DNA from: an uncultured Oxalobacteraceae bacterium
Lineage (GTDB): Bacteria > Pseudomonadota > Gammaproteobacteria > Burkholderiales > Burkholderiaceae_D
Assembly (NCBI GenBank): GCA_903893945.1
Contig: CAITOF010000098.1
Location: 1 to 64,000, forward strand
Length of the DNA: 64,000 nt
Direction: 5' to 3'
In this document: positions 27,461 through 48,187 of the stretch, piece by piece
Layout of the letters: every line of letters begins with the position of its first letter
Position numbering within the stretch: the first letter of the stretch is position 1
The notes under the pieces: model-generated
Database searches by the model: none
Told to the model about the DNA's origin: nothing
Seen by the model: only the letters and a program-made list of their open reading frames with translations
Translations under genes and position numbers: made by a program

Positions 27461-27806
27461 CATCTGCCCAGCCATCGGGCTCGGTCGCTACCAAACAGGT
27501 TGCGAGCGACGCGGCCCTGGCGTGGAATGAATGCTGACCTGTAATTTTTCTGTCTGATGCGTTACAAGACGTAAGTCTGATTGGTCCGCAAGCGTGTCCC
27601 CGGTGACTCTTGACTGACCTGAAACAGGGGACTTCAGCGGCACATCCAAATGTAATTTAGTGTAAATTAGTGTTTCCGTAACTTGTTATAATGCAATATC
27701 TATGGAAAACTGAATTTCCCTGCCGCAAGTTGCTCCGTGTAAAGATTGAAATGGCACGGCTGCCTGTAGCACCTGTTTATCAACCTGTTAATGAAGTGGG
27801 CATTCT
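27461..27806. other. Gap before the large envelope operon, carrying its likely promoter
   Basis: No gene is seen. The distal half contains tandem 10-base repeats and a perfect extended -10 (see 27651-27692). The remainder, 27461-27640, shows nothing notable. Confidence 0.5.
27651..27692 (+). promoter_or_regulatory. Extended -10 promoter with two direct repeats at the -35 position
   Basis: TG-T-TATAAT at 27684-27692 is a perfect extended -10. No good -35 exists; instead TGTAATTTAG (27651-27660) and TGTAAATTAG (27661-27670) stand as one-helical-turn direct repeats just upstream, as expected for an activator bound next to RNA polymerase. Transcription would start near 27699, giving about 108 bases of leader before apbE. 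Confidence 0.5.
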
Positions 27807-28832
27807 ATGTTTGGTATGTCTCGCGATACAGCGCCACGTCACGGTGCACGATCCGCCGCCGCTTCCAGAGCTGCGGCCGGCGCCACGACAGGCGTCAATG
27901 CGCCAGACAGCCACGGTTGGCACCGGCGTGAAGAAGCCATTATGGGAACCGCCATCAGCGTTGAGCTCTGGTGCGAAGACGCTGTCGTGGCCGAAAGTGC
28001 GATGAATGCGGTCATGGAAGAAATGCATCGCATTGACCGTCTGATGAGTCCGCATAAACCCGACTCCGAATTATCACGAATCAACCGTAACGCGGAACAC
28101 ATGGCGGTTCCGGTGTGCGATGAAATGATGATGCTGTTCAAACGCGCAAGTCATTTTTCGACCCTCTCAAAAGGCGCCTTCGATATAACCTATGCCTCGG
28201 TGGGCCGGTTGTTCGACTATCGTCAGCGCATCAGACCCGGGATTGAACAGCTGCAGCAGGCGCGCCTGGCCGTGGGCTACAAGAATTTTCTGCTCGATGA
28301 GTATACGCAAACCGTACGCTTTGGCAAACCCGGCATGTGCATTGATTTGGGCGGATTTGCCAAAGGTCATGCGGTCGACAATGCCACTGAAATCCTGGCG
28401 CGCTATGGTATTGGCCACGCCAACGTCAGTGCAGGTGGCGACAGCCGTGTAATGGGCGACAAACGCGGGCGTCCCTGGATGATAGGTGTGCGTGACCCCC
28501 GGCGCGAAGACAGGATTGTTGCGCTCCTGCCGTTGGTGGATACCTCCATCTCCACCTCGGGTGACTATGAACGGTATTTTGATGAAGAGGGTGTGAGGTT
28601 TCATCATCTGATCGATCCACTGACCGGGAAATCCCCGGACACAGTGCGCAGCGTCACGATTCTGGCCAGTGACGGATTGACCACGGAAGCGTTTTCGAAA
28701 ATTGTATTTGTGCTGGGAATTGAACAGGGGTTGAAACTGGTTGAAGCGCAACACGGAATAGACGCCATCATCGTGGACACGGCCGGCGTGTTGCATTTCT
28801 CATCGGGTTTGCTGAATTCGACGCCAGGCTGA
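27807..28832 (+). CDS. apbE: ApbE-family FAD:protein FMN transferase
   Basis: A 341-residue ApbE-type enzyme, which attaches FMN covalently to Ser/Thr of partner proteins. Family motifs are MGTAISVELWCED, MHRIDRLMSPHKPDSELSRI, IDLGGFAKGHAVDNA, SAGGDSRVMG and FHHLIDPLTGKSP. The metal-binding Asp/Thr tail is seen in the LTTEAFSKIVFVLG region. The N-terminus is Arg/Ala-rich without an obvious Sec or lipobox signal, unlike many ApbE proteins; a later start would leave the transferase core intact. It heads the envelope operon, so its substrate is probably one of the exported proteins encoded next to it. The classic D-x-x-[ST]-G-A-T acceptor is not plainly present in them. Confidence 0.88.
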   Translation: MFGMSRDTAPRHGARSAAASRAAAGATTGVNAPDSHGWHRREEAIMGTAISVELWCEDAVVAESAMNAVMEEMHRIDRLMSPHKPDSELSRINRNAEHMAVPVCDEMMMLFKRASHFSTLSKGAFDITYASVGRLFDYRQRIRPGIEQLQQARLAVGYKNFLLDEYTQTVRFGKPGMCIDLGGFAKGHAVDNATEILARYGIGHANVSAGGDSRVMGDKRGRPWMIGVRDPRREDRIVALLPLVDTSISTSGDYERYFDEEGVRFHHLIDPLTGKSPDTVRSVTILASDGLTTEAFSKIVFVLGIEQGLKLVEAQHGIDAIIVDTAGVLHFSSGLLNSTPG

Positions 28833-28881
28833 AGTCACCCTCGGGCTGCACCGAAGCGGCGTTAACACCAATTGGAAGAAT

Positions 28882-31881
28882 ATGATGAAGATACCTTTAC
28901 ACCTAATTACCGTGTCGGCCTTACTGCTGCTGGGCTGTCTGCTGTCAGGTTGCGGAGCCAGCAGCGACAGCAGTGCCTCGTCAGTGGTGGTATCGGGTGG
29001 CGTACCGATTGCGTACGCTAAACGCGTCAACACCATCAGCACCAATCCGACCAACGGGGCACCGACTGCGCCTGGCGGTGACCTGATGTTGCGCGAGGTC
29101 TCCTCGGCCAGTGCGGTGGAACACAATCTGACGGCTGCCTTTACTCAGGGCCAGGGGGATGTGAACAGCCTGGATGTGTCGTATGATGGTCTGAAAATCG
29201 TGTTTGCCATGCGCTGCCCGTCGACCAACTCGTCAACCATCGGCGGCCTGCCGGCATGTACTGACCGGTTCAATATCTGGGAATACGACATGACCACCGG
29301 AGGATTGACCGGTGGCACGTTCCGGCGCATTACAAGTTCAACCACCTCGGATGACGTGGAACCGACCTACCTTCCCGGCGGCGGCTTCGTGTTTACCTCG
29401 AACCGCCAGACCGAATCCAGTGTCAACCAGGCGTTGGGCTATTCCTATTTTGCGCTGGATGAGTATGAACGCGAACGGGTTTTTAACCTGCATACCATGG
29501 CCGACGATGGATCGAACATCAAGCAGATTTCATTCAATCAGAGTCACGACCGCAATCCGGTGGTCAGGCCCAACGGTGTCATCATGTTTTCGCACTGGGA
29601 TCACCTTGGTGGCCGGAATCATTTCAAGATTTTCACCGTTAATCCGGATGGAACCAACCTGTTTGTTCTGTACGGCTCGCACAGTGATGGCAACAGTTTT
29701 CTGCATCCGCGCGATATGGACCCGGGTTCAGTCCACGCCGGTTATCTGGCGACCGACCTGATGCCCTTGTCCCGCACCCATGAAGGCGGCGCGCTGATGT
29801 TTGTGAATGCGGCAAATTACTCCGACATGAGTTCACCCATCAGCCCGTCCGTACCGGCAACGGGTGGCCAGGTACAGGCTACCACGCAGCTCCTGAATTA
29901 CGATACCGGTCTGTCGCAATACGGCCGCATTACCACACCCTATCCACTCTCGGATGGCACCGATCGGGTACTGGTATCCTATACGCCCTGCGAAGTGCAC
30001 AATGTGGGTGTGATCGTGTCGTGCGCAACACTCACTCCCACGCAGATTGCCGACCTGTCCACGCCGAACCGTCTCGTGTCGGCAGTGCAGGCCGATCCGC
30101 TGCAGGACGATGTGCCTCCCTCGTATGCCATTTACATGTTTGATCCCGCGACACAGACTTTATTGAATGTCGCGCCGCCACCCGGCGGGTATATGTACAC
30201 CCATCCGGTGGCGCTGATGGCGCGCACGCAGCCGGCGGTGAACCCGCCGGCGACACCGGATCCGACGCTGGCGCAGCAAAAACTGGGTTTGCTCGATGTG
30301 CGCAGTGTGTATGACACGGATACGCTGGGGCGCATGGGCACCGATGTGCTGGCACCGAGCGATCTGGTAACCGGCTGTACCAGTGCAATTGCGCTGACGC
30401 CGCCCACCGACCCGCTGGATATTCGTCCGCTCGTGGCGAACCTGATCGCCATGAAAGATCCGGCCAATCCTGCCTATCTCTGCGGCCCGGCGCGCTTCAT
30501 TCGTGCTGTACGGGCAGTGGCGCCACCCAGTGACACGACCGGCATGCGCACGGCCATCGGCGAGACTGAATTTGAAATGCAGCAGATTCTGGGCTACGCG
30601 CCAATCGAACCCGACGGATCGTTCAAACTCACCGTGCCGTCTGACACGCCGATCGCGCTGGCAGTGATCGATGCGCAGGGGCGGGCCTTCCAGACGCATA
30701 CCAACTGGATACAGGTGCGTCCGGGCGAACACCGTACCTGCGATGGCTGCCATAGCCCGCGCCGTGGTGGCGCGATCAATTCGGGTTCCGTGGTCAACTC
30801 GGTTCCGTCGGCCTGGCTGCCCAGCATGATTTCCGCACACCAGGCGGGAGAAACCATGGCCGATACCCGCACGCGCCTCGATCCGACCGCGCTGCTACTC
30901 AAGCCGGACCCGGTTTATACCGATATCTGGGCGGATACCAGCAAGCCAGGTGTGACAGCCCGTCCGCCGTTGGCGATACGCTACACAAACAACACCCTGT
31001 CGACCGATGATCTGGTGACGGCGGTGCCAAGTAACGGTATTATTAACTACCCCGATCATATCCAGCCGATATGGTCGAGAAGCCGCGGTACGGCCGGTGT
31101 ATCGACCTGTACCAATTGCCATACCAGTACCGCGACCACGATCGATCTGGGTGCGACTATCGGTGGCAGTGGACGTTTAGCCTCGTACGATCAACTGATG
31201 ATAGGAGTGCCGCTATTGAATGCATCAGGCCAGCCACAGACCACCATCGAAGAGGGTGTCCTGGTGATTCAGCGCGCCGATGCCCTGGTCGATACGGCGG
31301 CGGATGAATCAGTCGCGCTGGGGCTGGGACGCAAGAGTCGCCTGGTCGAGATCATGACCGGACAAACGCTGATGTCTTCGAGTGCCGCGCAATTGGCGCA
31401 TCCGACGCCGGTGGCGCCGGCACCTGACCATTCGACGATGCTGAACGCGGCTGAAAAACGTCTGATTACCGAATGGATAGACACCGGCGGCAAATATTAC
31501 AATGACCCGTTTAACGCCTCGAGCGGCATTCTGGCGGTGAATGGATTGAGCCAGTCTGCCTTTGTTTCACAGGTTTATCCCATCATTCTGTCGACCTGCG
31601 CGGCCGGCTGTCACCAGGCCATCGGCAGCTCGGTGACCGGTGTTCCAGCCGGCACGGCGTTTCGCAATAACCGGTTCGTGTTGACGGGTGACCCGACCGG
31701 CGATTACAACGTGACCCTGACGATGATCACCAATGCCTGTCAACCGGCGTCGAATTATCTGCTGAGCAAACCGTCCACCATACCGCATCCGGTCGGTGCG
31801 GTCGGGGCGACAAAAGCGGTATTGCCGGCCAACAGCGCCAACTACAACATCATTGCCAACTGGATTCAGGGAGGATGTTAG
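28882..31881 (+). CDS. Large lipoprotein with heme-binding-like motifs, hydrazine-synthase-alpha-like
   Basis: A 999-residue exported lipoprotein (hydrophobic core then LLSGCGAS lipobox). Residues about 60-360 carry PD40/beta-propeller-type strands (VSYDGLKIVFAMRCPS, YLPGGGFVFTSNRQ, RPNGVIMFSHWDHL). The second half holds Cys motifs: CDGCH at 620-624 (followed by SPRRGG), CTNCH at 743-747 and the variant CAAGCH at 906-911. This order, propeller followed by c-type heme sites, resembles the hydrazine synthase alpha subunit family, whose members outside anammox bacteria have no defined activity. I infer a periplasmic or surface multiheme redox protein. The Ccm genes in the same operon could supply heme attachment. 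The next gene begins 2 bases after its stop. Confidence 0.78.
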   Translation: MMKIPLHLITVSALLLLGCLLSGCGASSDSSASSVVVSGGVPIAYAKRVNTISTNPTNGAPTAPGGDLMLREVSSASAVEHNLTAAFTQGQGDVNSLDVSYDGLKIVFAMRCPSTNSSTIGGLPACTDRFNIWEYDMTTGGLTGGTFRRITSSTTSDDVEPTYLPGGGFVFTSNRQTESSVNQALGYSYFALDEYERERVFNLHTMADDGSNIKQISFNQSHDRNPVVRPNGVIMFSHWDHLGGRNHFKIFTVNPDGTNLFVLYGSHSDGNSFLHPRDMDPGSVHAGYLATDLMPLSRTHEGGALMFVNAANYSDMSSPISPSVPATGGQVQATTQLLNYDTGLSQYGRITTPYPLSDGTDRVLVSYTPCEVHNVGVIVSCATLTPTQIADLSTPNRLVSAVQADPLQDDVPPSYAIYMFDPATQTLLNVAPPPGGYMYTHPVALMARTQPAVNPPATPDPTLAQQKLGLLDVRSVYDTDTLGRMGTDVLAPSDLVTGCTSAIALTPPTDPLDIRPLVANLIAMKDPANPAYLCGPARFIRAVRAVAPPSDTTGMRTAIGETEFEMQQILGYAPIEPDGSFKLTVPSDTPIALAVIDAQGRAFQTHTNWIQVRPGEHRTCDGCHSPRRGGAINSGSVVNSVPSAWLPSMISAHQAGETMADTRTRLDPTALLLKPDPVYTDIWADTSKPGVTARPPLAIRYTNNTLSTDDLVTAVPSNGIINYPDHIQPIWSRSRGTAGVSTCTNCHTSTATTIDLGATIGGSGRLASYDQLMIGVPLLNASGQPQTTIEEGVLVIQRADALVDTAADESVALGLGRKSRLVEIMTGQTLMSSSAAQLAHPTPVAPAPDHSTMLNAAEKRLITEWIDTGGKYYNDPFNASSGILAVNGLSQSAFVSQVYPIILSTCAAGCHQAIGSSVTGVPAGTAFRNNRFVLTGDPTGDYNVTLTMITNACQPASNYLLSKPSTIPHPVGAVGATKAVLPANSANYNIIANWIQGGC

Positions 31882-31883
31882 CG

Positions 31884-32483
31884 ATGCGGCCGTCATTCAT
31901 GGTCGGCACGGTGCTGGGCCTGCTGCTGTCAGGTTGCGGCGGGTCGTCGAACCCGCTGGGCAATTCGTCCACGATTGCCAATCCGGTTGTCACGACCAGC
32001 CAGTCGCTGTCGTTCGCTTATTTTCAACGTTGCGTCAATCCGATTTTTCTGGCCAGGCTGCAGACGCAGATCAACGGTACAACGCAAACCAATACCTGTG
32101 CCGCCGCCGGCTGCCACGCCTATGCGACCGGCGCGGGCGGTGCGTTGCGCATTGTGCCGACAGCGCAAGTCGTTGATGTAACCAATCCGGCCAACACCGC
32201 GGCTGTCATCCAGGCCACCGACATGTACAAAAACTTTTATTCGGCCCAGGGGGAAGTCGTGATTAATTCGCCAACACTCAGCCTGCTTTTGAACAAGCCC
32301 TTGTTGCGCGGCGTGCTGCACGGGGGCGGGCTGATATTTCCCGGCACCAGTGACCCGCATGTGCAACTGATCACCTACTGGATCACCCATCCGTCGCCAA
32401 TCGGGCAAGATGAATTCAGTTCGGCCAACAGTGACCTGTTCACACCGGCTGATCCGATGACCGGCGCATGCAACACACAATGA
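31884..32483 (+). CDS. Lipoprotein with a single CX4CH motif
   Basis: A 199-residue lipoprotein (LLLSGCGG lipobox). ATG 31884 is chosen because GGGAGG lies 9 bases upstream; ATG 31875 would be inside it. One Cys motif, CAAAGCH at residues 72-78, is a CX4CH variant of the c-heme site, surrounded by repeat-like Pro/Thr/Ala segments and ending DPMTGACNTQ. With the preceding gene it may form a heme-bearing complex at the outer membrane. The family is not one I can name. It overlaps the next gene by 16 bases. Confidence 0.68.
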   Translation: MRPSFMVGTVLGLLLSGCGGSSNPLGNSSTIANPVVTTSQSLSFAYFQRCVNPIFLARLQTQINGTTQTNTCAAAGCHAYATGAGGALRIVPTAQVVDVTNPANTAAVIQATDMYKNFYSAQGEVVINSPTLSLLLNKPLLRGVLHGGGLIFPGTSDPHVQLITYWITHPSPIGQDEFSSANSDLFTPADPMTGACNTQ

Positions 32484-33322
32484 TGACAGTCAATATGATG
32501 ATATTCAATCCATGTGCTCCTGCAATCCGGCAATCTCGGGCGGCGCTGCGACGGGTCGTGCCACTGATACTGACGCTGGTGCTGCTGGTGCCGATCGCAC
32601 CGGCGCGCGCCGGCAGTCCGCCAGACAGCATCACGGACAGCGTGCTGAATCCGGATGAACGTCTGCAGGTCACGGACCCGTATCTGGAGATGCACACCGG
32701 ACCGGGGCGCGGTTACCCGGTTTTTTTTGTGGTGCCACGGGGTCAGGGTGTCTGGATCGTGTTGCGTCATACGGACTGGTATAAAGTGCATACCGAAGAA
32801 GGCAAGGAGGGCTGGGTACAGCGTGCGCAGCTTGAATCGACCTTGACAGCAGCGGGCGTGCAGAAACCGTTCCGCGACCTGCTGCTGGATGATTACCTGA
32901 ACCGTAAAGTGCAGCTGGGCGCGGCCTGGGGCGAATTCAAGTCGGAACCGATGCTGAAGATATGGACCAGTTACCGGCTGTCGGAAACACTCAGCATCGA
33001 AGCTACGGTGGCCGAAGTGCAAGGGGTGTTTTCCGGTACGGATCTATGGCATGTCAATCTCATTTCCGAGCCGTGGTCCGATCAGCGCATTTCACCATTT
33101 TTCGGTATTGGGCTGGGCAGATTCAGAAACCTGCCCAACCAGAGTCTGGTGGAAGCGCTGCCCACGGCGTCGCAGTTGGGTAATGCCACGGTGGGCGTGC
33201 GTTACTACCTTAATGAGCGCTTCATTCTTCGTGCCGATTACACGCTGTATACCGCATTCGTTTCCGATCAACGTTCCATTGAATATCGTGCCTTTACGGG
33301 CGGCATTTCTTTCTTCTTCTGA
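32468..33322 (+). CDS. SH3-domain outer-membrane beta-barrel protein
   Basis: A 284-residue exported protein. After a signal peptide ending near APARAGSP, residues about 60-120 form a bacterial SH3 domain (YLEMHTGPGRGYPVFFVVPR, GVWIVLRHTDWYKVHTEEGK, GWVQRAQLE). The remainder alternates as barrel strands and ends in GGISFFF with a terminal aromatic, as for TIGR04565-like barrels (known from Myxococcus-type OMP families). Several ATG codons crowd the start (32468, 32480, 32483 region, 32495); the longest is reported. It probably anchors the complex to the outer membrane and contacts peptidoglycan through SH3. Confidence 0.72.
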   Translation: MQHTMMTVNMMIFNPCAPAIRQSRAALRRVVPLILTLVLLVPIAPARAGSPPDSITDSVLNPDERLQVTDPYLEMHTGPGRGYPVFFVVPRGQGVWIVLRHTDWYKVHTEEGKEGWVQRAQLESTLTAAGVQKPFRDLLLDDYLNRKVQLGAAWGEFKSEPMLKIWTSYRLSETLSIEATVAEVQGVFSGTDLWHVNLISEPWSDQRISPFFGIGLGRFRNLPNQSLVEALPTASQLGNATVGVRYYLNERFILRADYTLYTAFVSDQRSIEYRAFTGGISFFF

Positions 33323-33330
33323 AAATAATC

Positions 33331-33972
33331 ATGACACTGAAAACGACACTATGCACCTTGCTCACCGTATTGCCACTGGCGGGTTTCGCGGCCGATGATC
33401 AGGAGGCGGCACCGAACCAGAATCAGGTGGTTGTTCCTGAAGTGGCGCGCCGTGATGTCCAGCTTCCGCATTTTCCGTCCAATGATTTTGATGTGGGGGC
33501 CTTTTTTGGTACCTATGACACGCAGAATTTTGGATCCGCGGCGGTCGGCGGGTTGAAAATCGGCTATAACATCACGGAAGACTATTTTGTCCAGGGCGTG
33601 TTTGCCGAAACCAAGGTCAGTGATGCAACCTACCGGCAGATACTCCCCGGCGGCATTTTCCCGGTGCAAAACGAGAAAATGCGCTACTACAATCTGTCAG
33701 CCGGCTACAACATTCTGCCGGGTGAAGTATTTGTGGGCACAAAATATGCCATGCCTTTCACCCTGTACCTGATTGGTGGCGTCGGCAGCACGACGCTCGA
33801 TGACCAGAAACATGCGACGTTCAATGTCGGCACCGGGGTGCGCCTGTTCTTTACCGATCGGATCTCGATGCAGCTTGACGCCCGTGACCATGTTTTTTCC
33901 ATGGATCTTCTGGGTGAGCGTGAACGGTTGCAGAATCTGGAGTTGACGGTGGGTTTGCTGGTGTCCTTTTAG
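33331..33972 (+). CDS. Outer-membrane beta-barrel protein (OMP_myx_plus-like)
   Basis: A 213-residue exported barrel. The signal peptide ends at LAGFAADD. A short charged linker is followed by repeated strands (FDVGAFFGTYDTQNF, YNLSAGYNILPGEVFVG, YLIGGVGSTTL, VGTGVRLFFTDRISM) ending in TVGLLVSF with a terminal Phe. It looks like the small barrel family that accompanies TolQ/TolR/AgmX loci, e.g. GltA/GltB-like proteins of Myxococcus. It follows the SH3 barrel by 8 bases, so two barrels are made together. Confidence 0.72.
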   Translation: MTLKTTLCTLLTVLPLAGFAADDQEAAPNQNQVVVPEVARRDVQLPHFPSNDFDVGAFFGTYDTQNFGSAAVGGLKIGYNITEDYFVQGVFAETKVSDATYRQILPGGIFPVQNEKMRYYNLSAGYNILPGEVFVGTKYAMPFTLYLIGGVGSTTLDDQKHATFNVGTGVRLFFTDRISMQLDARDHVFSMDLLGERERLQNLELTVGLLVSF

Positions 33973-33984
33973 TGAGGCATGCAC

Positions 33985-34485
33985 ATGAAAGCTAAAGTCC
34001 TGCATTCCTTTCTGCTGGCAGGTTGCCTGGTGGCAGCGCAGTTCGCGCAGGCGGCGCCATTGACCCTGATGGCGGCGGCGCCCGATTTCACCCTGCATAC
34101 CGTGGCCGGCCCCAATCTGCGCCTGCGGGAACAGCGTGGCCAGGTGGTGCTGATCAATTTCTGGGCAACCTGGTGCGGCCCGTGTCAGCAGGAAATGCCG
34201 CAGCTTAACAAGCTGTACGAAAAATACCATGCAGCCGGGTTTGTTCTGCTGGGCGTCAATGTCGACGACGACGTCAGGCATGCGTCTGATGTGGCAGGCC
34301 GCCTCGGACTGAAGTTTCCTGTCCTGCTGGACACGGACAAGGCGACCAGCCACCTTTATGAACTGGTGACCATGCCGTCGACCGTACTGATAGACCGGGA
34401 TGGCAAGGTGCGTTATATCCATAAGGGGTACCTTGCCGGTGCCGAAAGCGACTATGACAGGCAGATCCGTGAGCTGCTAAAGTGA
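33985..34485 (+). CDS. TlpA-like periplasmic thioredoxin
   Basis: A TlpA/ResA-type thioredoxin of about 166 residues. A signal peptide (HSFLLAGCLVAAQFAQAA) exports it; the first C of it may even be a lipobox. The active site WCGPC in INFWATWCGPCQQEMP is intact, and the cis-proline loop TMPSTVLIDRDG is present. Role: reducing or isomerising Cys pairs, perhaps keeping heme-site cysteines of the neighbour lipoproteins reduced for attachment. ATG 33985 is preferred over ATG 33979 because GAGG lies 7 bases upstream. Confidence 0.88.
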   Translation: MKAKVLHSFLLAGCLVAAQFAQAAPLTLMAAAPDFTLHTVAGPNLRLREQRGQVVLINFWATWCGPCQQEMPQLNKLYEKYHAAGFVLLGVNVDDDVRHASDVAGRLGLKFPVLLDTDKATSHLYELVTMPSTVLIDRDGKVRYIHKGYLAGAESDYDRQIRELLK

Positions 34486-34523
34486 ACGCGACATCATGAC
34501 AACCAGATTGTGAGAGTTAAATC

Positions 34524-34748
34524 GTGAATATGCATAAACTGCTGGTGCCAGGCTTTGTAGTCGCGTTGTTGGCCGGCTGCACCGTTGAACCGTGGGTAAA
34601 ACCCTACGAACGGGAAAGTCTGGCCGATCCCATCATGCAATTTTCGTCCGATCCACTGGCTGCAAAACACATCGAGCATGTGCATGACGTGCGTGAAGGT
34701 GCGCACGGTGCTACCGGTGTAGAGGGAGGCGGCTGTGGATGCAATTGA
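34524..34748 (+). CDS. DUF4266-like lipoprotein ending in GGGCGCN
   Basis: A tiny 74-residue lipoprotein (LLAGC lipobox, Cys19). Conserved features of the DUF4266 family are PWVKPYERESLADPIM, the short helical section, and the C-terminal REGAHGATGVEGGGCGCN, with two Cys two residues apart at the very end. GTG 34524 has GAGAG 7 bases upstream; ATG 34530 is the alternative. The Cys-rich tail and small size suggest a metal- or heme-handling or modified-tail protein, but there is no known biochemistry I can cite. It overlaps the DUF3570 gene by 14 bases. Confidence 0.78.
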   Translation: MNMHKLLVPGFVVALLAGCTVEPWVKPYERESLADPIMQFSSDPLAAKHIEHVHDVREGAHGATGVEGGGCGCN

Positions 34749-35865: not shown

Positions 35866-35876
35866 AGAGACGATTT

Positions 35877-36461: not shown

Positions 36462-36464
36462 CGC

Positions 36465-41400: not shown

Positions 41401-41550
41401 CTGTATCTGAACGACACCCAGCAGGCCATGGATTTGTATGCGCGCTATCTGGCCATGCACCCCGAGGGGGACGCGGAGGTGTCGAAATGGATCACCGAAC
41501 TGAAGAATCGCAAACCGTCGAAGGCTGCACAACAGGGAGCTAAATCATGA
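38434..41550 (+). CDS. Large TPR lipoprotein (GltE/AglT-like position)
   Basis: A 1038-residue lipoprotein (LSMLSACAQ lipobox) packed with TPR repeats along most of its length. Examples are FQLAQLARLDGNSAHE and AIASYQLYLKSYPNDPTNDR; a final TPR pair (LRQQGQFDKAEQAYRDALAA, LNLGILYDLYLNDTQQAMDL) closes it. AAKASLVLAEPIADAYRKV and the region around 930-1000 are not repeats. It starts inside the stop region of the previous gene (17-base overlap) and overlaps the next gene by 4 bases. Such long TPR lipoproteins in TolQR loci are thought to span the periplasm; the role here is inferred. Confidence 0.78.
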   Translation: MRARLSLSVFALSMLSACAQWHFFGGKSASGTPDNEPTIKSIAGRTVDIEHDQSVTTNEQQAIDAYKRFLASAPTSSKTSDATFRAEAMRRIGDLEMESADGKNAQGDPDFAAAIASYQLYLKSYPNDPTNDRVLYQLARAQEQSGDLGAALKSLKQLVIQYPQTAYSDEAQFRLGELLFAMGNYPSAEKAYATVLTSGAAGRYYDRALYMQGWTQFKQGQLDAAVQSFFGVLDVKLTGSAGEAGLESISGLTRADRELLEDTFRVISLSLENMDGAQSIGSYITTPQRRDFEFRVYEQLGELYLKQERIKDAADTFSLFARQKPLDAHAPIMQARVIDIYESTGFVSLALQAKKDYVVRYGSTSEFRQTNPQGWEKAQNLVKVHLAELAGYYHANAQKSRNKDDYDEAIHWYRDYLTSFPTDKEAAENNFLLAELLYEDARYAEASVEYQKTAYQYPENPRSADAGYAALLSYAHQIDSADAGALPALQKNSVNSALQFAGTFTTDPRAAPVLANAAEKLLNLKDDPQAASVAQKILDLQPAAKDEQRRIAWTVLAYTRFDSGEFHASEQAFSEALALTAADAPNRHDLIEQQAAAIYKQGEQARDAGQYSEAVANFARVSALAPGSSIRATADYDAAAAMIALKDWDHAAVQLENFRQRYPGNPLTAQVGDKLAVVYLEQGQWNNAALELDAIAATRSDSKVASDMLWQAAQLHEKAGVRGAAARDYERYLSLNADHPGLALEARFQLAQLARLDGNSAHEQVLMKELVASEQNAGAARTDRTRYLAAKASLVLAEPIADAYRKVVLKEPLKKQLKLKKARMEEVLKAYSTATGYGVADVTTEATYDIATIYRDFGKALMVSERPAKLNKVEREQYDVMLEEQAFPFEEKAIEIYELNAARTASGIYDEWVQKSLLALRELKPARYAKSERSAAPDGGSTGANSLNRSAIALRQQGQFDKAEQAYRDALAADANDSLAVLNLGILYDLYLNDTQQAMDLYARYLAMHPEGDAEVSKWITELKNRKPSKAAQQGAKS

Positions 41551-41900
41551 AACCGATGACCAGTTTGTTGGCCGTGCTTTTTCTGGCGCCGGCCATGGCA
41601 CAGGATCATGCAGACATTGACCGGTCACAGATCATTGGTAACCGGGAATTGCCCAAAGTGCTGTACATTGTACCCTGGAAAAAGCCACTGCCCGGCGATC
41701 TGTCTGGTCGGCCACTGGAAAGCGTGCTCGATGAAGCGCTGGCGCCGGTCGACAAAGAGGTATTCCAGCGCCAGGTCAGGTATCAGACCCAACCGGTTGA
41801 CGAGAGCCGGCAGCAACCAGCCAGTAAGCAGGAGAATGCGCAGGCAGACAGGCAGCAGCGGTCGACCAGCAGTTCCGTATCAACAGGCAGTGTGAAATAA
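41547..41900 (+). CDS. Small exported protein of unknown function
   Basis: A 117-residue protein with a signal peptide ending at PAMAQDHA. The central segment IIGNRELPKVLYIVPWKKPL is the only strongly structured part, followed by a Gln/Ser-rich tail. ATG overlaps the previous stop by four bases (ATGA). It may be a linker protein of the complex; I recognise no family. Confidence 0.62.
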   Translation: MKPMTSLLAVLFLAPAMAQDHADIDRSQIIGNRELPKVLYIVPWKKPLPGDLSGRPLESVLDEALAPVDKEVFQRQVRYQTQPVDESRQQPASKQENAQADRQQRSTSSSVSTGSVK

Positions 41901-41937
41901 ACCAGCATCCCAACACCTTTTTTGTGGAGTTTTAATT

Positions 41938-42606
41938 ATGGATACCCTAGACCTTGCCATCAAATTTTTCCGCGATTGCGGATTATTTATTTACCCGAGC
42001 TTATTGATCATGTCTTTAGGTGTCACTATCGCGATAGAGCGCTTTATTTTTCTGAACAGGGCCCGGTCCCAGAATCGGCGTCTGTGGGGTCAGGTACTGC
42101 CGCTGCTGCAAAAAGGCCAGTTCAAGGAAGTGCTGGGCATCACCTCCGACGCGGACGCCGCCGTGGGCAAGATCATTTATTACGGTCTGGTCCGCATGCA
42201 GAGCCCGGGACGTCGCGAAGACTACGATTCGGCCATGGAAGAGGGCATGATGGAAATTGTGCCGCGTCTGGAAAAACGCACGCATTACATCGCCACCTTT
42301 GCCAACGTGATTACCCTGGTCGGGTTGCTCGGGACAATTATCGGCCTGATTAAAGGGTTTACAGCGGTGGCCCAGGTGAATCCTGCCGAAAAGGCCGAAA
42401 TGCTGTCGGCAAGTATTTCGATTGCGATGAATAACACGGCGTTTGCGCTGATGGTGGCGATCCCGTTCCTGCTGATTCATGCCTTTCTGCAGGCTAAAAC
42501 GGGTGAGATTGTCGATGGTCTGGAGTCGGCAAAAATGACGTTTCTGAATCTGGTTCAGCGCATCCGCTCGGAACAGGCCGCTGCGGCTGAAGCCAGGAAA
42601 TCATGA
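41938..42606 (+). CDS. MotA/TolQ/ExbB-family proton channel protein
   Basis: A 222-residue inner-membrane protein with three expected membrane helices: about residues 15-35, 120-145 and 160-185. The last two include the family core (NVITLVGLLGTIIGLIKGF, SASISIAMNNTAFALMVAIPF). It should form the pentameric stator with the two TolR-like proteins that follow. GGAG-like GTGGAG is 9 bases before the ATG. In Myxococcus the corresponding protein is AglR. Overlap with the next gene is ATGA. Confidence 0.88.
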   Translation: MDTLDLAIKFFRDCGLFIYPSLLIMSLGVTIAIERFIFLNRARSQNRRLWGQVLPLLQKGQFKEVLGITSDADAAVGKIIYYGLVRMQSPGRREDYDSAMEEGMMEIVPRLEKRTHYIATFANVITLVGLLGTIIGLIKGFTAVAQVNPAEKAEMLSASISIAMNNTAFALMVAIPFLLIHAFLQAKTGEIVDGLESAKMTFLNLVQRIRSEQAAAAEARKS

Positions 42607-43094
42607 AAGTCCGGCGCCTGCGCAAAGATGTCGCGCACCTTGAAATTACCGCGTTCATTAACCTGATCGTGGTGCTGGTACCGTTTCTGCTGTCGACGGC
42701 GGTATTTACCCGTTTGGCGGTGATTGATCTGACCTTGCCCGCCAGGAATTCACAGGCACTGGAGCAGGTCAAAGCGGACAATCTGCAACTGGAAATTGTG
42801 GTGCGGTCGGATGCACTCGAGGTGGGCGACCGGATCGGTGGCCTGATACAGCGCATACCGGCGACCGACCACGGACCGGACCTGCGTGCCCTGACCACTC
42901 TGGCGGAACAGCTGAAAACGCGCTTTCCCGACAAAAATGAAGCGTCGGTACTGGCGGAGCCGGATACGTCGTATGACACCATCGTGAAAGTCATGGATGC
43001 GATTCGTGTCGGCCATGTTGTCCAGGGCGATAAAGTGGTGCGGTCTGAGCTGTTTCCGGCCATTTCGATTGGCGATGCACCGGTCAGAAAATAA
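42603..43094 (+). CDS. TolR/ExbD-like protein lacking the membrane aspartate
   Basis: A 163-residue single-helix TolR-family protein. The N-terminal helix reads LEITAFINLIVVLVPFLLST, where the usual aspartate of this family's helix (I-D-V/L) is Asn20. The periplasmic domain extends to the C-terminus. Asn at this position should break proton-coupled function on its own; it may form a heterodimer with the downstream Asp-containing protein. It overlaps the previous gene by four bases. Confidence 0.83.
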   Translation: MKVRRLRKDVAHLEITAFINLIVVLVPFLLSTAVFTRLAVIDLTLPARNSQALEQVKADNLQLEIVVRSDALEVGDRIGGLIQRIPATDHGPDLRALTTLAEQLKTRFPDKNEASVLAEPDTSYDTIVKVMDAIRVGHVVQGDKVVRSELFPAISIGDAPVRK

Positions 43095-43137
43095 AAACAG
43101 GCGATCGGTTGAAAGTGAAAAAAGGGGTTGATAAGTC

Positions 43138-43635
43138 ATGAAACTCACCATGCGACAAAAACGCGCGGAACGCCGCAAGCGCAATCTGACTATGGTCGAT
43201 ATGAACCTGGTTTCATTGATCGACGTATTCACCATCCTGATTTTTTTCCTGCTGTCCAATTCAGTGGGCGTCGATTCACTGCCCAGCCCGAAAGCGGTAC
43301 TGTTGCCGGAATCAATTGCCGAGCAGAGTCCGCGCGATACCGTGGTGGTGATTGTCAGCGGGACAGAAATTCTGGTCGAAGGTCGCAAGGTGGCCTCGGT
43401 GCCGGATGTGCTGGCCATGGATGGCGACATCATAGGGGCGCTCAAGAATGAACTCGATCTGCTGCAATCCAGCCGAAAAATCATACGCAAGGAAAATGAA
43501 GCCCAGAGCAAACAGCTGACCATTATGGGGGACAGGGAAATTCCCTATCGTCTGCTGCGCAAAATCATGGTGACCAGCGCCAGTGCCAATTTCAGCGATG
43601 TCTCGTTCGCAGTGCGGCAGAGGAGTGAATCATGA
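43138..43635 (+). CDS. TolR/ExbD-like protein with the membrane aspartate
   Basis: A 165-residue TolR-family protein. A basic cytoplasmic N-terminus (KRAERRKRN) is followed by the helix MNLVSLIDVFTILIFFLLSN, with the proton-path Asp29 in place. A periplasmic domain follows. With the TolQ-like protein it should make the energising stator. It differs from its neighbour at the key residue. Overlaps the next gene by 4 bases. Confidence 0.86.
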   Translation: MKLTMRQKRAERRKRNLTMVDMNLVSLIDVFTILIFFLLSNSVGVDSLPSPKAVLLPESIAEQSPRDTVVVIVSGTEILVEGRKVASVPDVLAMDGDIIGALKNELDLLQSSRKIIRKENEAQSKQLTIMGDREIPYRLLRKIMVTSASANFSDVSFAVRQRSES

Positions 43636-44702
43636 GTACGGCATTGATGGTGTCGTTTCGCGAACCGGAATTTCCGTGGGCCGGCTCGCCGGAAGATGAC
43701 TCGCGCTTCAACTATTTACTGAGAAATGTCCTGACCTTCTGCATCGTGCTGAGTCTGCTGGTGATTTTCATGCCGGTCGCGGTCGTGGACCGGAGCAAGA
43801 ATCAGGCGGTCCCCGAGCAGATCACCACAATGGTGCTGGACCACGTTAAACAGTTGCCCCCGGTCATACCCGAAGAGACAGCCCGGCCCGACCTGCCGAA
43901 AGCGGCGGAGAAAAATCCTGACGTGAACAGCCAGGACAAAAAGCACAGGGAAAAGCCCGCACCGGAGGCCAGGGTTCCGCTGCCGGATAAACCGCCGGGT
44001 GAGATCGATGCGGCACGGCATAAAGTGGCCGGTGTCGGCCTGTTGTCGATGTCCAAAGATCTGGAAGAGCTGCGCGGCGCACCGATGGCGGTGCAGGTCG
44101 CGCCAGTCAAACCCGGACCGGGTGTGGGCAGCGGTACCGGTGTGGGTGTGGGTGCCGGGTCCGAAGCCGGGGTGCCGGTCCGCGCACTGATTACCTCGAA
44201 CGCCAGTGGCGGTAGCGGCGGCATTAATACCTCCGGTTACAGCAGTAACACGGGCGGCGGTGGTCTGGCAGGGCGTTCCACCACGCTGGTGGAAGGTGCG
44301 CTGGGTGGTGGCGGCGGTGGAGGCGCAGGGCGCGCGGGCGGCGCCGGCACCCGGGCAGGCCTGAAAACGGCCAATCCCGGTGGCGTGCTGCAGCGTGGTG
44401 GCAGTGGTAAAGCGTCGCGTTCCATCGAAGAAATAAAGCTGGTGTTTGAAAAAAACAAGGGGGCGATCTACGCCATCTATAATCGGGCGCTGCGTGAGGA
44501 ACCGGGTCTGCAGGGCAAGGTGGTGCTGGAATTAAAGATTGCACCAGCGGGCAATGTGCTGGACTGCCGGATCGTGTCGAGTGAACTGAAATCACCGGAA
44601 CTGGAATCCAGACTTCTGGCACGGATCCGCCAGTTTGATTTTGGTGCCAAAGATGTGGATCAGATGAACGTGACCTGGCCTGTTGATTTTTTACCTTCCT
44701 GA
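43632..44702 (+). CDS. AgmX/PglI C-terminal-domain TonB-like protein
   Basis: A 356-residue protein built like TonB. A short cytoplasmic N-terminus precedes one membrane helix (NVLTFCIVLSLLVIFMPVAV). A Pro/Lys/Glu-rich periplasmic section follows, then a Gly-rich stretch (residues about 155-260, runs of up to seven Gly) and a folded C-terminal domain (IEEIKLVFEKNKGAIYAIYN, LQGKVVLELKIAPAGNVLDC, FDFGAKDVDQMNVTWPVDFL) of the AgmX/PglI type. In Myxococcus AgmX (GltJ) is part of the gliding complex. It should transmit energy from the TolQ/TolR stator across the periplasm. Ribosome overlap of four bases with the previous gene. Confidence 0.85.
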   Translation: MSTALMVSFREPEFPWAGSPEDDSRFNYLLRNVLTFCIVLSLLVIFMPVAVVDRSKNQAVPEQITTMVLDHVKQLPPVIPEETARPDLPKAAEKNPDVNSQDKKHREKPAPEARVPLPDKPPGEIDAARHKVAGVGLLSMSKDLEELRGAPMAVQVAPVKPGPGVGSGTGVGVGAGSEAGVPVRALITSNASGGSGGINTSGYSSNTGGGGLAGRSTTLVEGALGGGGGGGAGRAGGAGTRAGLKTANPGGVLQRGGSGKASRSIEEIKLVFEKNKGAIYAIYNRALREEPGLQGKVVLELKIAPAGNVLDCRIVSSELKSPELESRLLARIRQFDFGAKDVDQMNVTWPVDFLPS

Positions 44703-44716
44703 AGAGCCGGACGAGT

Positions 44717-45346
44717 ATGACTTTAGTGGCCCGGCAACTTTCGTGCACGCGTGGCGATCGCGACCTGTTTCAGTCGGTCAGCATCGATCTGCAGCCGGGA
44801 GCCGTGTTGCGAATTGCCGGTCATAATGGCGCCGGAAAAACCAGCCTGTTCCGGCTGTTGTGTGGTTTGTCGGCACCATCCGCCGGCGAGGTGAGCTGGA
44901 ACGGCATCAACATCAACACACTGGGCGAGCAGTTTCGCAGCCAGCTGACGTATGTGGGTCACCTTAACGGTATCAAGGATGATTTGACCGTGCGTGAAAA
45001 TCTGGTGATGAACGCGCTGCTTGCCGGACATCCGGTGCCACCCGGATCCACTGGCAGCGTGCTGGAACAGGTCGGATTGGCGGATGTCGCCGATTTGCCG
45101 ACCCGCGTTCTGTCGCAGGGCCAGAAAAAGCGTGTCGCCCTGGCCAGATTGGCGTTCTGCGCCGGGACACCGTTGTGGCTTCTGGACGAACCATTTTCTG
45201 CGCTCGATGCGCGCGCTGTGGCCTCGTTGTGTGAAACACTGAATCAGCACCTGCGCAATAATGGCATGGTGGTCTACAGTACCCACCAGGACATGGAATT
45301 GCAGGGTAAAAGCAGCCTGACGCTTGATCTGGACATGCCATGCTGA
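44717..45346 (+). CDS. ccmA: CcmA, heme exporter ATPase
   Basis: A 209-residue ABC ATPase with Walker A GHNGAGKTSLF, Q-loop LTYVGHLNG, signature LSQGQKKRVALARL and Walker B LWLLDEPFSALD. It powers release of holo-CcmE in cytochrome c maturation. It starts 14 bases after the AgmX gene and overlaps ccmB by seven bases, so it seems part of the same transcript. Confidence 0.92.
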   Translation: MTLVARQLSCTRGDRDLFQSVSIDLQPGAVLRIAGHNGAGKTSLFRLLCGLSAPSAGEVSWNGININTLGEQFRSQLTYVGHLNGIKDDLTVRENLVMNALLAGHPVPPGSTGSVLEQVGLADVADLPTRVLSQGQKKRVALARLAFCAGTPLWLLDEPFSALDARAVASLCETLNQHLRNNGMVVYSTHQDMELQGKSSLTLDLDMPC

Positions 45347-46008
45347 CACTCCTGTTGCGGATAATTGCCCGTGATCTGCTGCTGGCGTATCGACGCCGTT
45401 CTGACGTGGTGTCAGCGTTATTCTTTTTTGTTCTGGTGGTGTCGCTGTTTCCCCTGGGTGTGGGCCCGGAACCTGAATTGTTAAAGTCGATTGCGCCGGG
45501 TATAGTCTGGGTTGCGGCGCTGCTGGCATCCACCCTTGCGTTGGGCCGCCTGTTCGCGCTCGACTACGCGGATGGCACGCTGGAGCAGATGCTGCTCGCG
45601 CCCGAACCACTCAGTATTATTGTCATCGGCAAAGTTGCTGCGCACTGGCTGGTGTCCGGGTTGCCGGTGGTGCTGTTGGCACCGCTGCTGGCATTGCAGT
45701 TCGGATTGTCCGGCGATTCGGTGACGGTATTGGTTGTGAGCCTTCTGATCGGGACGCCGACCCTGAGTTTTATGGGTGCCATAGGGGCCGCACTGACCTT
45801 GGGATTGCGTGGTGCCAGCGTCCTGATGTCATTACTGGTATTGCCGCTGACGATTCCAGTGTTGATCTTTGGCGCAGGCGCAGTAAGTGCTCGCATTAGC
45901 GGCATGGATGCGACAGCGCACCTGCAATTGCTGGGTGCGCTGTTAGCGGCAACAGTGGCACTGGCGCCCTGGGTCACCGTGGCGGCACTCAGAATCTCGC
46001 TGGATTGA
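45340..46008 (+). CDS. ccmB: CcmB, heme exporter membrane subunit
   Basis: A 222-residue inner-membrane protein with six expected helices. The family start IIARDLLLAYRRRSDVVSAL and the helices LVVSLFPLGVGPEPELL, GASVLMSLLVLPLTIPVLIF are diagnostic. Partner of CcmA and CcmC. It overlaps ccmA. Confidence 0.92.
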   Translation: MLTLLLRIIARDLLLAYRRRSDVVSALFFFVLVVSLFPLGVGPEPELLKSIAPGIVWVAALLASTLALGRLFALDYADGTLEQMLLAPEPLSIIVIGKVAAHWLVSGLPVVLLAPLLALQFGLSGDSVTVLVVSLLIGTPTLSFMGAIGAALTLGLRGASVLMSLLVLPLTIPVLIFGAGAVSARISGMDATAHLQLLGALLAATVALAPWVTVAALRISLD

Positions 46009-46049
46009 ATTCAGGCACAATCCGGATTTAACGCAACCCGAATCAGAAA

Positions 46050-46805
46050 ATGGTAACCATGGCTTTAAAAATACGATGGTTCAGATACGCGGCACCCGAA
46101 CCGTTTTTTCACCTTGCCGGGAAATGCATTCCGTGGTTTTTCACGCTTGCCCTGTCATTTTTTGGCGCGGGCTTTTACGCGGGTTTCGTCCTGGCGCCCA
46201 CCGATTTTCAGCAGCACGATGCGTATCGCATTATTTATCTGCATGTACCGGTCGCCTGGATGTCGATGTTCATTTATGTCGTCATGGCGGCGTGGGCGGG
46301 AATCGGCTGGGCTTTCAATACACGATTATCGTCCATGATGGCCTCTGCGCTGGCGCCGACCGGGGCGCTGTTGACCTTTCTGGCATTATGGACCGGGGCG
46401 CTGTGGGGCAAGCCGACGTGGGGTACCTGGTGGGTCTGGGATGCGCGGCTGACCTCTGAATTGATACTGCTGTTCCTGTATATCGGTTTTATGGCGTTGC
46501 AGGCCGCTATCGATGAACCGCGCCGCGCTGACAAGGCCGGTGCTGTGCTTGCGCTGGTCGGGGTGGTCAATATTCCCGTGATCTATTTTTCGGTTCAATG
46601 GTGGAACACCCTGCATCAGGGAGCCTCGATTTCACTGACCAAGGCGCCTACAATGGCGGCAACGATGTTATCAGGTCTGGTACTGATGGGTCTGGCCTGC
46701 TGGATGTATGCGCTGGCTGCGGTTCTGATGCGGGTTCGTTGTATCATACTGGAACGGGAAAAGAAGTCTGACTGGGTCAGGCGGTATCGGGAGGGCGGCG
46801 TATGA
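46050..46805 (+). CDS. ccmC: CcmC, heme-handling membrane protein
   Basis: A 251-residue CcmC with six helices. The Trp-rich loop GKPTWGTWWVWDARLTSE is the WWD heme-binding domain, flanked by His-containing loops (IIYLHVPVAWMS; VQWWNTLHQGASISLTK) supplying ligands. It loads heme on CcmE. ATG 46059 is an alternative start. Stop overlaps the ccmD start (ATGA). Confidence 0.92.
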   Translation: MVTMALKIRWFRYAAPEPFFHLAGKCIPWFFTLALSFFGAGFYAGFVLAPTDFQQHDAYRIIYLHVPVAWMSMFIYVVMAAWAGIGWAFNTRLSSMMASALAPTGALLTFLALWTGALWGKPTWGTWWVWDARLTSELILLFLYIGFMALQAAIDEPRRADKAGAVLALVGVVNIPVIYFSVQWWNTLHQGASISLTKAPTMAATMLSGLVLMGLACWMYALAAVLMRVRCIILEREKKSDWVRRYREGGV

Positions 46806-46951
46806 ACTGGTCCGGTTGGTCCGAGTTTGTCAACATGGGCGGGTATGCGTTCTATGTATGGGGTTCGCTGGGCACGGTACTCGTTTGCCTGGCGCTTGAA
46901 CTGACCGGATTGCGGCGACGTTTTAAAAAATTACATGAAACCAAGGCATAA
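46802..46951 (+). CDS. ccmD: CcmD, small membrane protein
   Basis: A 49-residue protein read directly from the bases: [20 protein letters not shown], one membrane helix ([16 protein letters not shown]), then a basic tail [12 protein letters not shown]. It matches CcmD in size, the Tyr/Trp motif before the helix and basic tail. GGAGGGCGG precedes the ATG; it overlaps ccmC by four bases and ccmE by 17. Confidence 0.88.
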
Positions 46952-47375
46952 ACGACTCCTGTTGATCCTCGCCGGTTTGGCTGCCACGGGCATCGCTGCC
47001 GCACTGGTTCTGTCTGCATTTCAGAAAAATCTGGTATTCTTTTTCACGCCGACACAGATTGCAGCAGGTCAGGCACCGCACGGTAAAAGTTTTCGGCTGG
47101 GGGGTATGGTGGTGGAACACAGCCTGAAACGGCAGGCCGACGGGGTGACGCTCAGTTTTGTGGTGACCGATCTGGCCCAGGACATAACGGTGCAGTATCA
47201 CGGCATACTGCCCGACCTGTTCAAGGAAGGCAAAGGCGTTGTGGCCCAGGGCAGACTGAATGACGAGCATGTTTTTGTGGCCGAGGAGGTGCTGGCCAAG
47301 CATGATGAAAATTACATGCCACCCGAGGCTGCCTATGCCCTGAAGCAGGGCGGTCAAACCGGCGCCCCAAAATAG
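46935..47375 (+). CDS. ccmE: CcmE, heme chaperone
   Basis: A 146-residue membrane-anchored periplasmic heme chaperone. The heme-binding His is in the conserved [13 protein letters not shown] near residue 119. The N-terminal anchor ([21 protein letters not shown]) and OB-fold strands ([18 protein letters not shown]) are present. With CcmABCD it would deliver heme to the apocytochrome ligase (CcmF/H), which is not in this window. Confidence 0.92.
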
Positions 47376-47441
47376 TATTCAGCGGTATCGCCACGGATGT
47401 GGCATACAATTTCAACTTGCAAACTGATAAAGGACAATTTT

Positions 47442-48104
47442 ATGCGTTACCTGAAATTTGTTACCGCCACGCTGTGGCTGATTACCCAACTCTGCGCCGC
47501 CACACCGACCAACCCGGTTGAAGGGCGTGAATACAAGACGCTGGCATCGCCGCAGCCGGTGACAGCAAGCGGGGGAAAAGTGGAGGTGATTGAATTTTTC
47601 ATGTACCATTGCCCGGCCTGCAATCTGCTTGAGCCACAGTTGCTGGACTGGATAAAAAAACAGGGCGACCATATTGTTTTCCGGCGTATCCATCTACCCC
47701 ACAATGGAACAAAAGACGTCGAGTCGCATATGTTTCTGACGCTGGAAGCATTGCAGAAAGAAAATGAGATGCACGCCCGAATCCTGACGACCTGGCATGT
47801 TGATCACCACCAACTGCTCACCGATGCAGACAATGTTGAATGGGCAGTGAACAACGGATTCGACAGACAGCAGTTTATTGATACCTATAATTCGTTTTCG
47901 GTCATGAGTAAATTGCAGAACCTGCTGCATGTGGCGGAAAGTTACCATGTCAACAGCACGCCGTCGCTGATCATTGACGGACGTTTTCTGGTTGGACCGG
48001 CTTTAATACAGGAGAACAACAGGGAACTTAAAGTGGAAGAACTGTCCAGGGCGTTGCTGCAAGTGGCTGATGTACTGGTTGAAAAGGCCAGAGTGGGCAA
48101 ATAG
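47442..48104 (+). CDS. dsbA: DsbA-like thiol:disulfide oxidoreductase
   Basis: A 220-residue periplasmic DsbA, ATG 47442 with AAGGA 7-11 bases upstream. The signal peptide ends near QLCAATPT. The active site is CPAC in FFMYHCPACNLLEP and the cis-proline loop NSTPSLIIDGRF. It forms disulfides, which must then be reduced before heme attachment. It ends 41 bases before a strong terminator and is the last gene of the operon. Confidence 0.88.
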   Translation: MRYLKFVTATLWLITQLCAATPTNPVEGREYKTLASPQPVTASGGKVEVIEFFMYHCPACNLLEPQLLDWIKKQGDHIVFRRIHLPHNGTKDVESHMFLTLEALQKENEMHARILTTWHVDHHQLLTDADNVEWAVNNGFDRQQFIDTYNSFSVMSKLQNLLHVAESYHVNSTPSLIIDGRFLVGPALIQENNRELKVEELSRALLQVADVLVEKARVGK

Positions 48105-48145
48105 CGTGCTGAACAGATAAAGCGGATTCGTGCTGATGATAAAAA

Positions 48146-48187
48146 ATCCCGGCGCATGAGGTGACTCATGCGCCGGGATTTTTTTTT
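48146..48187. terminator. Bidirectional terminator closing the envelope operon
   Basis: ATCCCGGCGCATGAG, loop GTGA, CTCATGCGCCGGGAT, then a T-run, preceded by an A-run: a perfect 15-bp stem that should work in both directions. It separates the envelope operon from the minus-strand miniprotein and aminopeptidase genes. Confidence 0.93.

Follow-up and report, generated by a model that had tools for sequence, protein, structure and literature searches.

The 64,000-nucleotide stretch of DNA analysed here (the window), from an uncultured Oxalobacteraceae bacterium, contains a cluster of about 16 genes, ApbE to AgmX (27807-44702), in which two gene sets published separately form one conserved system. 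The first set, subsequently referred to as the redox half, extends from ApbE to a DUF3570 outer-membrane barrel. The second, the core, extends from a 194-residue exported protein through one TolQ-like and two TolR-like motor subunits (TolR1 and TolR2) to the TonB-like protein AgmX. The core resembles the group B core of Luciano et al. (2011; PMC3169522), which comprises GltC, D, E and G, AglR, Q and S and an additional gene; these genes were described as clustered in Gammaproteobacteria, Geobacter, Fibrobacter and a single betaproteobacterium, with function unknown. The core has also been called a machinery that stands alone and may serve basal transport (PMC3858216). The redox half resembles the flavinylation cluster of ApbE, DUF3570, thioredoxin and DUF4266 that Meheust et al. 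(2021; PMC8238504) described within a neighbourhood of five genes either way. As far as literature searches reach the join is new: in the open PubMed Central (PMC) literature no paper was found that joins the Agl/Glt core with the flavin cluster, a join which supplementary tables may show, nor one that pairs the TolQ/TolR family with outer-membrane electron transfer. Two published unknowns are halves of one widespread system. On balance we lean towards the reading that the cluster encodes one machine which spans the envelope, is driven by protons and acts on a redox assembly in the outer membrane as its load.

The pairing was computed across 369 genomes sampled evenly over the class Gammaproteobacteria, with an E limit of 1e-12 for TolR1 and for the redox-half marker, a protein that joins an SH3b domain to a small barrel (SH3-barrel). 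TolR1 was found in 82 genomes, DUF4266 in 90 and the SH3-barrel protein in 56. The core is present in all 56 SH3-barrel genomes, recognized in 50 through TolR1 and in the other 6 through the 194-residue protein, and 52 of the 56 carry DUF4266, so that co-occurrence of the redox half with the core is near-exclusive. These genomes span 31 families, and in another 17 families the core alone is found. TolR1 and DUF4266 occur together in 63 genomes (odds ratio 32). DUF4266 was rejected as a marker of the system because it is too broad, 21 of its 90 carriers having no core by TolR1 or by the 194-residue protein; a query with the latter gave 0/21 in the DUF4266 genomes without SH3-barrel and TolR1 and 6/6 in the SH3-barrel genomes without TolR1. 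At the loci of three genomes with DUF4266 and no core markers (G228, G278 and G181) the HZS-alpha-like and SH3-barrel genes are absent. The total of 88 core genomes is a lower bound, since the search for the 194-residue protein was confined to selected genomes, and some misses are contig ends; G131, scored as lacking the SH3-barrel protein, has a contig that stops at the OMP_myx gene. A set covering the phylum gave the core in 9 of 249 genomes, all within the same class.

Gene order was read at the best 80 of at least 510 relatives found by scanning named genome contigs for the 194-residue family. Many of these belong to Burkholderiales, and others to Chromatiales, Thiogranum, Candidatus Thiodiazotropha, Nevskiaceae and Pseudomonadales. 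Where the upstream flank is full (55 loci), two or more redox genes share the strand of the core in 40 loci, one or more are divergent in 14, and 1 locus has none; where it is short (25 loci), redox genes are visible in 9 and not in 16. Downstream of the 194-residue gene all seven core markers are present in 50 of the 53 loci with long downstream flanks. Among 17 marker-linked genomes both halves lie on one strand in 14, with some genes missing or moved, and are divergent in 3, a count biased towards shared order because these genomes were picked for marker closeness. Across the survey the SH3-barrel and core markers are no more than 30 kb apart in 27/56 genomes, the remainder including short contigs. 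The halves are unlinked in G313, where they occupy two long contigs, and in G323, where they are 507 kb apart. The pairing survives this reorganisation. At one locus (L058:5682-7664) a gene for a TonB-dependent receptor lies between ApbE and a second TlpA gene of the cluster.

The redox half shares with the published ApbE-DUF3570-DUF4266 system adjoining genes for ApbE, DUF3570, a thioredoxin-like protein and a DUF4266 protein with a CXC motif. It differs in the addition of genes for an HZS-alpha-like lipoprotein, the SH3-barrel protein and an OMP_myx barrel, and in the proton motor that follows. The middle domain of the HZS-alpha-like protein and its haem motif align with hydrazine synthase alpha (5c2v; phmmer E 7e-10), whereas the HzsA equivalog model gives 49.7 bits against a cut-off of 800, and no family match to other HZS subunits was found among the cluster proteins scanned. 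Cys620, Cys623, His624, Cys746 and His747 are kept in 50/50 long members of this family and Cys743 in 49/50; the third haem motif is not general among them. The small lipoprotein that follows has relatives without any C-x2/3-CH pattern (47/47). The DUF4266 C-terminus is kept in all 15 listed of 67 relatives. The predicted model of the DUF3570 protein (mean predicted local distance difference test score, pLDDT, 86.3) was matched by Foldseek to outer-membrane barrels such as FadL and OmpG with template-modelling (TM) scores of only 0.33-0.54, which supports the class of outer-membrane barrel and nothing finer. Its two DxxTxAS sites fall in the long loop after the third predicted strand. Barrel chains usually start in the periplasm; if this one does, the loop that bears the sites would be outside or in the lumen.

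The core has several features of group B. The AglR-like channel gene adjoins two TolR-like genes, AgmX, the TonB/GltG-like protein, ends in a TonB_C-like domain and exceeds the NF033768 cut-off, and TPR proteins and an extra gene, which is possibly the 194-residue protein, complete the block. It differs in that seven genes plus one are given in print, whereas here 56 of 88 core genomes add the outer-membrane redox half. A possible likeness to GltC, GltD and GltE is one of TPR proteins of fitting size and place, as compared by profile models. Among members of the 661-residue family 1/19 matched GltE, weakly (25 of 33 matched families listed), and the 1038-residue lipoprotein is split into two open reading frames (ORFs) of about 935 and 215 residues in many relatives. 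The fold predicted for the 194-residue protein gave no clue to function: it is a sandwich of transthyretin type, matched with Z 8-9.6 across some 95-100 residues, and such an arrangement is too common.

In Myxococcus an interaction of AglR with GltG has been described, and proton flow through AglRQS powers movement at the surface (PMC3169522, PMC3858216). The Agl/Glt gliding and Nfs sporulation machines share with the cluster the motor type, TPR parts, the AgmX C-terminal domain and the OMP_myx barrel type (TIGR04565), a possible counterpart of the outer-membrane parts of group A. The likeness to Glt drawn in the earlier note extends to an ancestral core of Agl/Glt type and not to the gliding machine itself, since the scores fall below the equivalog cut-offs for GltE (43 bits against 225), GltG (35.9 against 650) and GltJ (22.7 against 450). 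The same values make it very improbable that the cluster is a gliding motor, despite the core that it has in common with one. The Tol-Pal and ExbBD-TonB systems likewise share motor families and a TonB-like end domain and differ in their scores (tolQ 54.9 bits against 221, exbB 33.5 against 206, TolR 21.2 and 22.8 against 127.3) and in that the cluster has two different TolR-like genes.

These two genes differ at the proton site. In 86 sets of TolQ, TolR1 and TolR2, the window included, TolR2 has Asp in 86/86, whereas TolR1 has Asn in 74 and Asp in 12; in a looser count that admits TolR1 genes at other positions than those of the cluster, 65 have Asn and 13 have Asp. A stator with a single Asp is therefore ruled out as a universal feature. 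In Myxococcus, AglQ and AglS are both described with the conserved Asp, in contrast to the Asn found in one TolR here, and the source leaves the formation of a heterodimer open (PMC9389320). As a homodimer of the Asn-bearing TolR would be inactive, a mixed TolR1-TolR2 pair is the simple reading where Asn occurs, and the Asn/Asp pair bears on the AglQ-AglS question.

In the proposed machine the proton channel, formed by one TolQ-like and two TolR-like subunits, would drive AgmX, which in turn may act via the TPR, 194-residue and 117-residue exported proteins on the outer-membrane assembly. The load would comprise three barrels, namely the large one of DUF3570 and two small ones of which one bears an SH3b domain, together with the cytochrome lipoprotein of HZS-alpha type. 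Electrons could reach this assembly from TlpA and from DUF4266 with its CXC motif, and ApbE would charge DUF3570 with flavin mononucleotide (FMN) in lineages that keep both the motif and an exported enzyme. We infer such a physical complex, its electron path and the action of the motor upon it from gene content, order and co-occurrence. The motor, AgmX and the TPR proteins would be expected to extend as far as the outer membrane, and such partners as are conserved there are barrels and redox proteins; the redox assembly is taken as the load. The motor may open, move or assemble the redox complex.

Several observations weigh against this reading. The association of the SH3-barrel protein with TolR1 alone (odds ratio 73, Fisher p 5e-33) was obtained from related genomes, uncorrected for descent. 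The core lacks the SH3-barrel marker in 32/88 core genomes, 15 of them also without DUF4266, and its neighbours in eight loci without the redox half are mostly housekeeping genes, as read by eye from the first 60 residues, with LptD alone checked against Pfam. The core can therefore work without the redox half, and these housekeeping ORFs were set aside as a guide to its function. The cluster is patchy in the genus of the window, where DUF4266 occurs in 3/5 genomes, and distance correlations, calculated with no species tree, are 0.61-0.78 between the halves and 0.80 and 0.82 within them. Finally, two features of the window itself bear on the flavin: the DUF3570 sites are TNAS and TTAS, not the two [S/T]GA[S/T] sites of the published system, and ApbE has a hydrophobicity of 0.68, which by this crude measure places it among proteins without a signal stretch.

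Alternatively, the halves might be independent systems that stay side by side through a common habitat, the economy of an operon or transfer as an island. Each half has been published alone, and besides the 32 genomes with the core and no SH3-barrel marker there are the 21 with DUF4266 clusters and no core. This explanation is nevertheless improbable, as the SH3-barrel redox half is never found without the core in the 369 genomes and 31 families, unlinked cases included.

The flavin question is one of lineage. A DUF3570 protein of Chlorobium was flavinylated by its own ApbE on co-expression in Escherichia coli (PMC8238504). The last serine of the DUF3570 sites is kept in 69/69 (first) and 67/69 (second). 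Within a Burkholderiales-like group, defined by locus number (L065-L117 minus nine loci), the first site is SNAS or TNAS in 42/43 and the second TTAS in 41/43; outside it SGAS and SSAS lead at the first site (19/26). A simple hydrophobicity measure finds a signal-like stretch in ApbE at 17/17 loci outside this group (at least 1.97) and at 0/34 measured within it (at most 1.89; L082 excluded, a few starts doubtful). The apparent lack of an ApbE signal (L065-L115) and the shift of the first motif from S[GS]AS to SNAS are seen in the same group. In the window a hydrophobic stretch can be seen by eye at the N-terminus of DUF3570, and by the hydrophobicity measure ApbE has none. Flavin is hence not assured in the lineage of the window, where ApbE shows no export signal and the motif departs from the published flavinylation sites. 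The earlier note had proposed a motor-energized trans-envelope complex with flavin- and haem-bearing surface proteins, its motor and redox genes belonging together. That pairing is borne out by the 56/56 redox-half genomes with the core, so that the lack of co-occurrence elsewhere which the note had named as its refutation is not seen, and ApbE and DUF3570 are indeed present; the flavin itself is doubtful here, and the haem-attachment genes fall outside the system (see below).

The TonB_C-like end of AgmX would also suit energized uptake, in which motor and AgmX together would play the part of a TonB system and open DUF3570, or a partner of it, for import of a nutrient, probably a metal reduced at the surface by the cytochrome and flavin sites. 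The receptor gene at L058 and the occurrence of the VIT1 iron transporter in 25 DUF3570 clusters (PMC8238504) point the same way. However, that receptor is the only such insert among 14 same-strand clusters, and the conserved genes of the cluster include no substrate transporter of the inner membrane; uptake is a distinctly less probable explanation than a motor acting on a redox assembly.

In divergent loci three large genes lie between the halves (e.g. L059:8605-13928, L160, L161). One encodes a protein similar to PSD2, at 20.4 bits and so under the cut-off of that family, another a LamG lipoprotein that carries CxxCH motifs, and the last a protein of twin-arginine translocation (Tat) type which had no match in Pfam and which, by motif, we take to be DUF1501-like. 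The DUF1501-like protein is found in 44/56 redox-half genomes against 5/78 controls (3/32 core-only, 2/46 others). A counter-example to its tracking of the redox half is G072, one of the two others and a genome in one contig, which has a close relative (C1:2004225-2005796, 873 bits) without an SH3-barrel or 194-residue match. The core could instead be a transporter that moves lipoprotein cytochromes and the Tat-type protein or displays them at the cell surface, the redox proteins being cargo or folding helpers. The Nfs/Agl machinery moves a surface polymer in Myxococcus, and a basal transport role has been proposed for the core (PMC3858216), and the DUF1501-like protein that tracks the redox half lies beside the LamG-cytochrome gene in the loci read. 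Against this, the DUF1501-like protein was found in 0/3 tested genomes of the genus of the window, and barrels and thiol proteins have no obvious role as cargo; surface assembly is slightly less probable again than uptake.

The pairing of motor and redox genes in 31 families hints at what the ancestral motor is for. Gliding is thought to have evolved from a motor of the Agl/Glt core type, a core in print since 2011 with function unknown, and its redox company makes the question testable. A tentative extension, which we regard as possible though rather unlikely as a whole, is that the ancestral job of this core in Gammaproteobacteria is to energize an outer-membrane electron-transfer machine of three parts (the proton motor, the DUF3570/HZS-alpha barrel set, and the surface set of DUF1501-like protein and LamG-cytochrome). 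Proton flow would then drive redox work at the surface, through a stator that would often be asymmetric, with TolR1 and TolR2 paired as a heterodimer in which only one site is active. If the cluster is one machine, the proton-driven TolQ/TolR family would be linked to outer-membrane electron transfer.

The window belongs to a 3.65 Mb genome of 125 contigs that is 91% complete (contig C98). The cluster forms part of a real run of 22 genes, all on the + strand (27807-48104, CcmD included), listed in the table below. The earlier note had described such a closely spaced run from promoter to terminator, and its gene list holds with minor changes by family profile matches, among them the AgmX, TIGR04565, DUF4266, DUF3570 and HZS_alpha families that it had named for searching. 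Spacing is -17 to 49 bases, the sole longer gap being the 129 bases between CcmC and CcmE, inside which most of CcmD sits. The terminator-like hairpin stands out, as the next best between 27400 and 48400 has 11 pairs, and the run may be a single transcript. The extended -10 element is a perfect match, at a frequency close to that expected by chance in the window. Immediately upstream, on the same strand, a 497-residue TPR protein without a lipobox pattern is encoded at 25967-27460.

Table 1. Features of the 22-gene run and its flanking signals.
Feature	Position	Strand	Evidence
Extended -10 element TGTTATAAT, TGnTATAAT perfect, candidate promoter	27684..27692	+	one match in window; chance expectation 0.87
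ApbE, FAD:protein FMN transferase, no obvious signal peptide	27807..28832	+	PF02424 254 bits
HZS-alpha-like lipoprotein (lipobox by pattern), HZS_alpha middle domain; CDGCH, CTNCH, CAAGCH	28882..31881	+	PF18582 70.7 bits
Small lipoprotein, CAAAGCH motif, haem binding uncertain	31875..32483	+	motif reading
SH3b domain and small outer-membrane barrel (redox-half marker, alignment A2)	32468..33322	+	SH3_3 32.2 bits
Outer-membrane barrel, OMP_myx_plus type	33331..33972	+	TIGR04565 124.8 bits, cut-off 60
TlpA/ResA-like periplasmic thioredoxin, Cys66-x-x-Cys69	33979..34485	+	Redoxin 108 bits; ResA model 121.7, cut-off 170
DUF4266 lipoprotein, C-terminus GGGCGCN	34524..34748	+	PF14086 79.8 bits
DUF3570 outer-membrane barrel; model predicts about 16 strands; both DxxTxAS sites within the same loop	34735..35865	+	PF12094 111.9 bits
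194-residue exported protein, predicted helix and transthyretin-like beta sandwich, first core gene	35877..36461	+	alignment A1; predicted model
661-residue exported protein, weakly TPR-like; GltC-like by size and place only	36465..38450	+	weak TPR similarity
1038-residue TPR lipoprotein, GltD/GltE-like	38434..41550	+	TPR families; GltE model 43 bits, cut-off 225
117-residue exported protein, conserved in core	41547..41900	+	conservation
TolQ/ExbB/AglR-like channel subunit	41938..42606	+	PF01618 (MotA_ExbB) 86.2 bits
First TolR-like subunit, Asn20 at usual Asp site	42603..43094	+	PF02472 (ExbD) 47.4 bits
Second TolR-like subunit, Asp29 retained	43138..43635	+	PF02472 (ExbD) 44.1 bits
AgmX/PglI-type TonB-like protein, end of conserved cluster	43632..44702	+	NF033768 C-terminal domain 63.1 bits, cut-off 40
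CcmA, neighbour outside conserved system	44717..45346	+	NF010061 236.8 bits, cut-off 195
CcmB, neighbour	45340..46008	+	PF03379 248 bits
CcmC, neighbour	46050..46805	+	PF01578 112.6 bits
CcmD, 38 residues, neighbour	46835..46951	+	named by size and place only
CcmE, neighbour	46935..47375	+	NF009729 222 bits, cut-off 171
DsbA-like thiol oxidoreductase, Cys72-x-x-Cys75, neighbour	47397..48104	+	NF047695 50 bits, below cut-off 290
Terminator-like hairpin	48141..48184	+	20-pair stem, then T run

The haem-attachment genes at the end of the run, which the earlier note had counted as part of the unit, include equivalogs of CcmA and CcmE and members of the CcmB and CcmC families. Their rarity beside the clusters of relatives speaks against their being part of the system. 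Ccm genes were found in 3 of 53 loci, whose flanks reach only about 1-2 kb beyond agmX, and CcmB, CcmC or CcmE in 0/17 marker-linked genomes, most of which extend 2-7 kb beyond it. In the genus of the window they are not within 9 kb in G003 and do follow the cluster in G004. The CcmB of the window is the sole copy over cut-off in its genome and CcmF is encoded on another contig, so that these look like a general cytochrome c maturation set. Together with the DsbA gene they appear to be ordinary maturation genes that happen to follow, and that the cytochromes would need.

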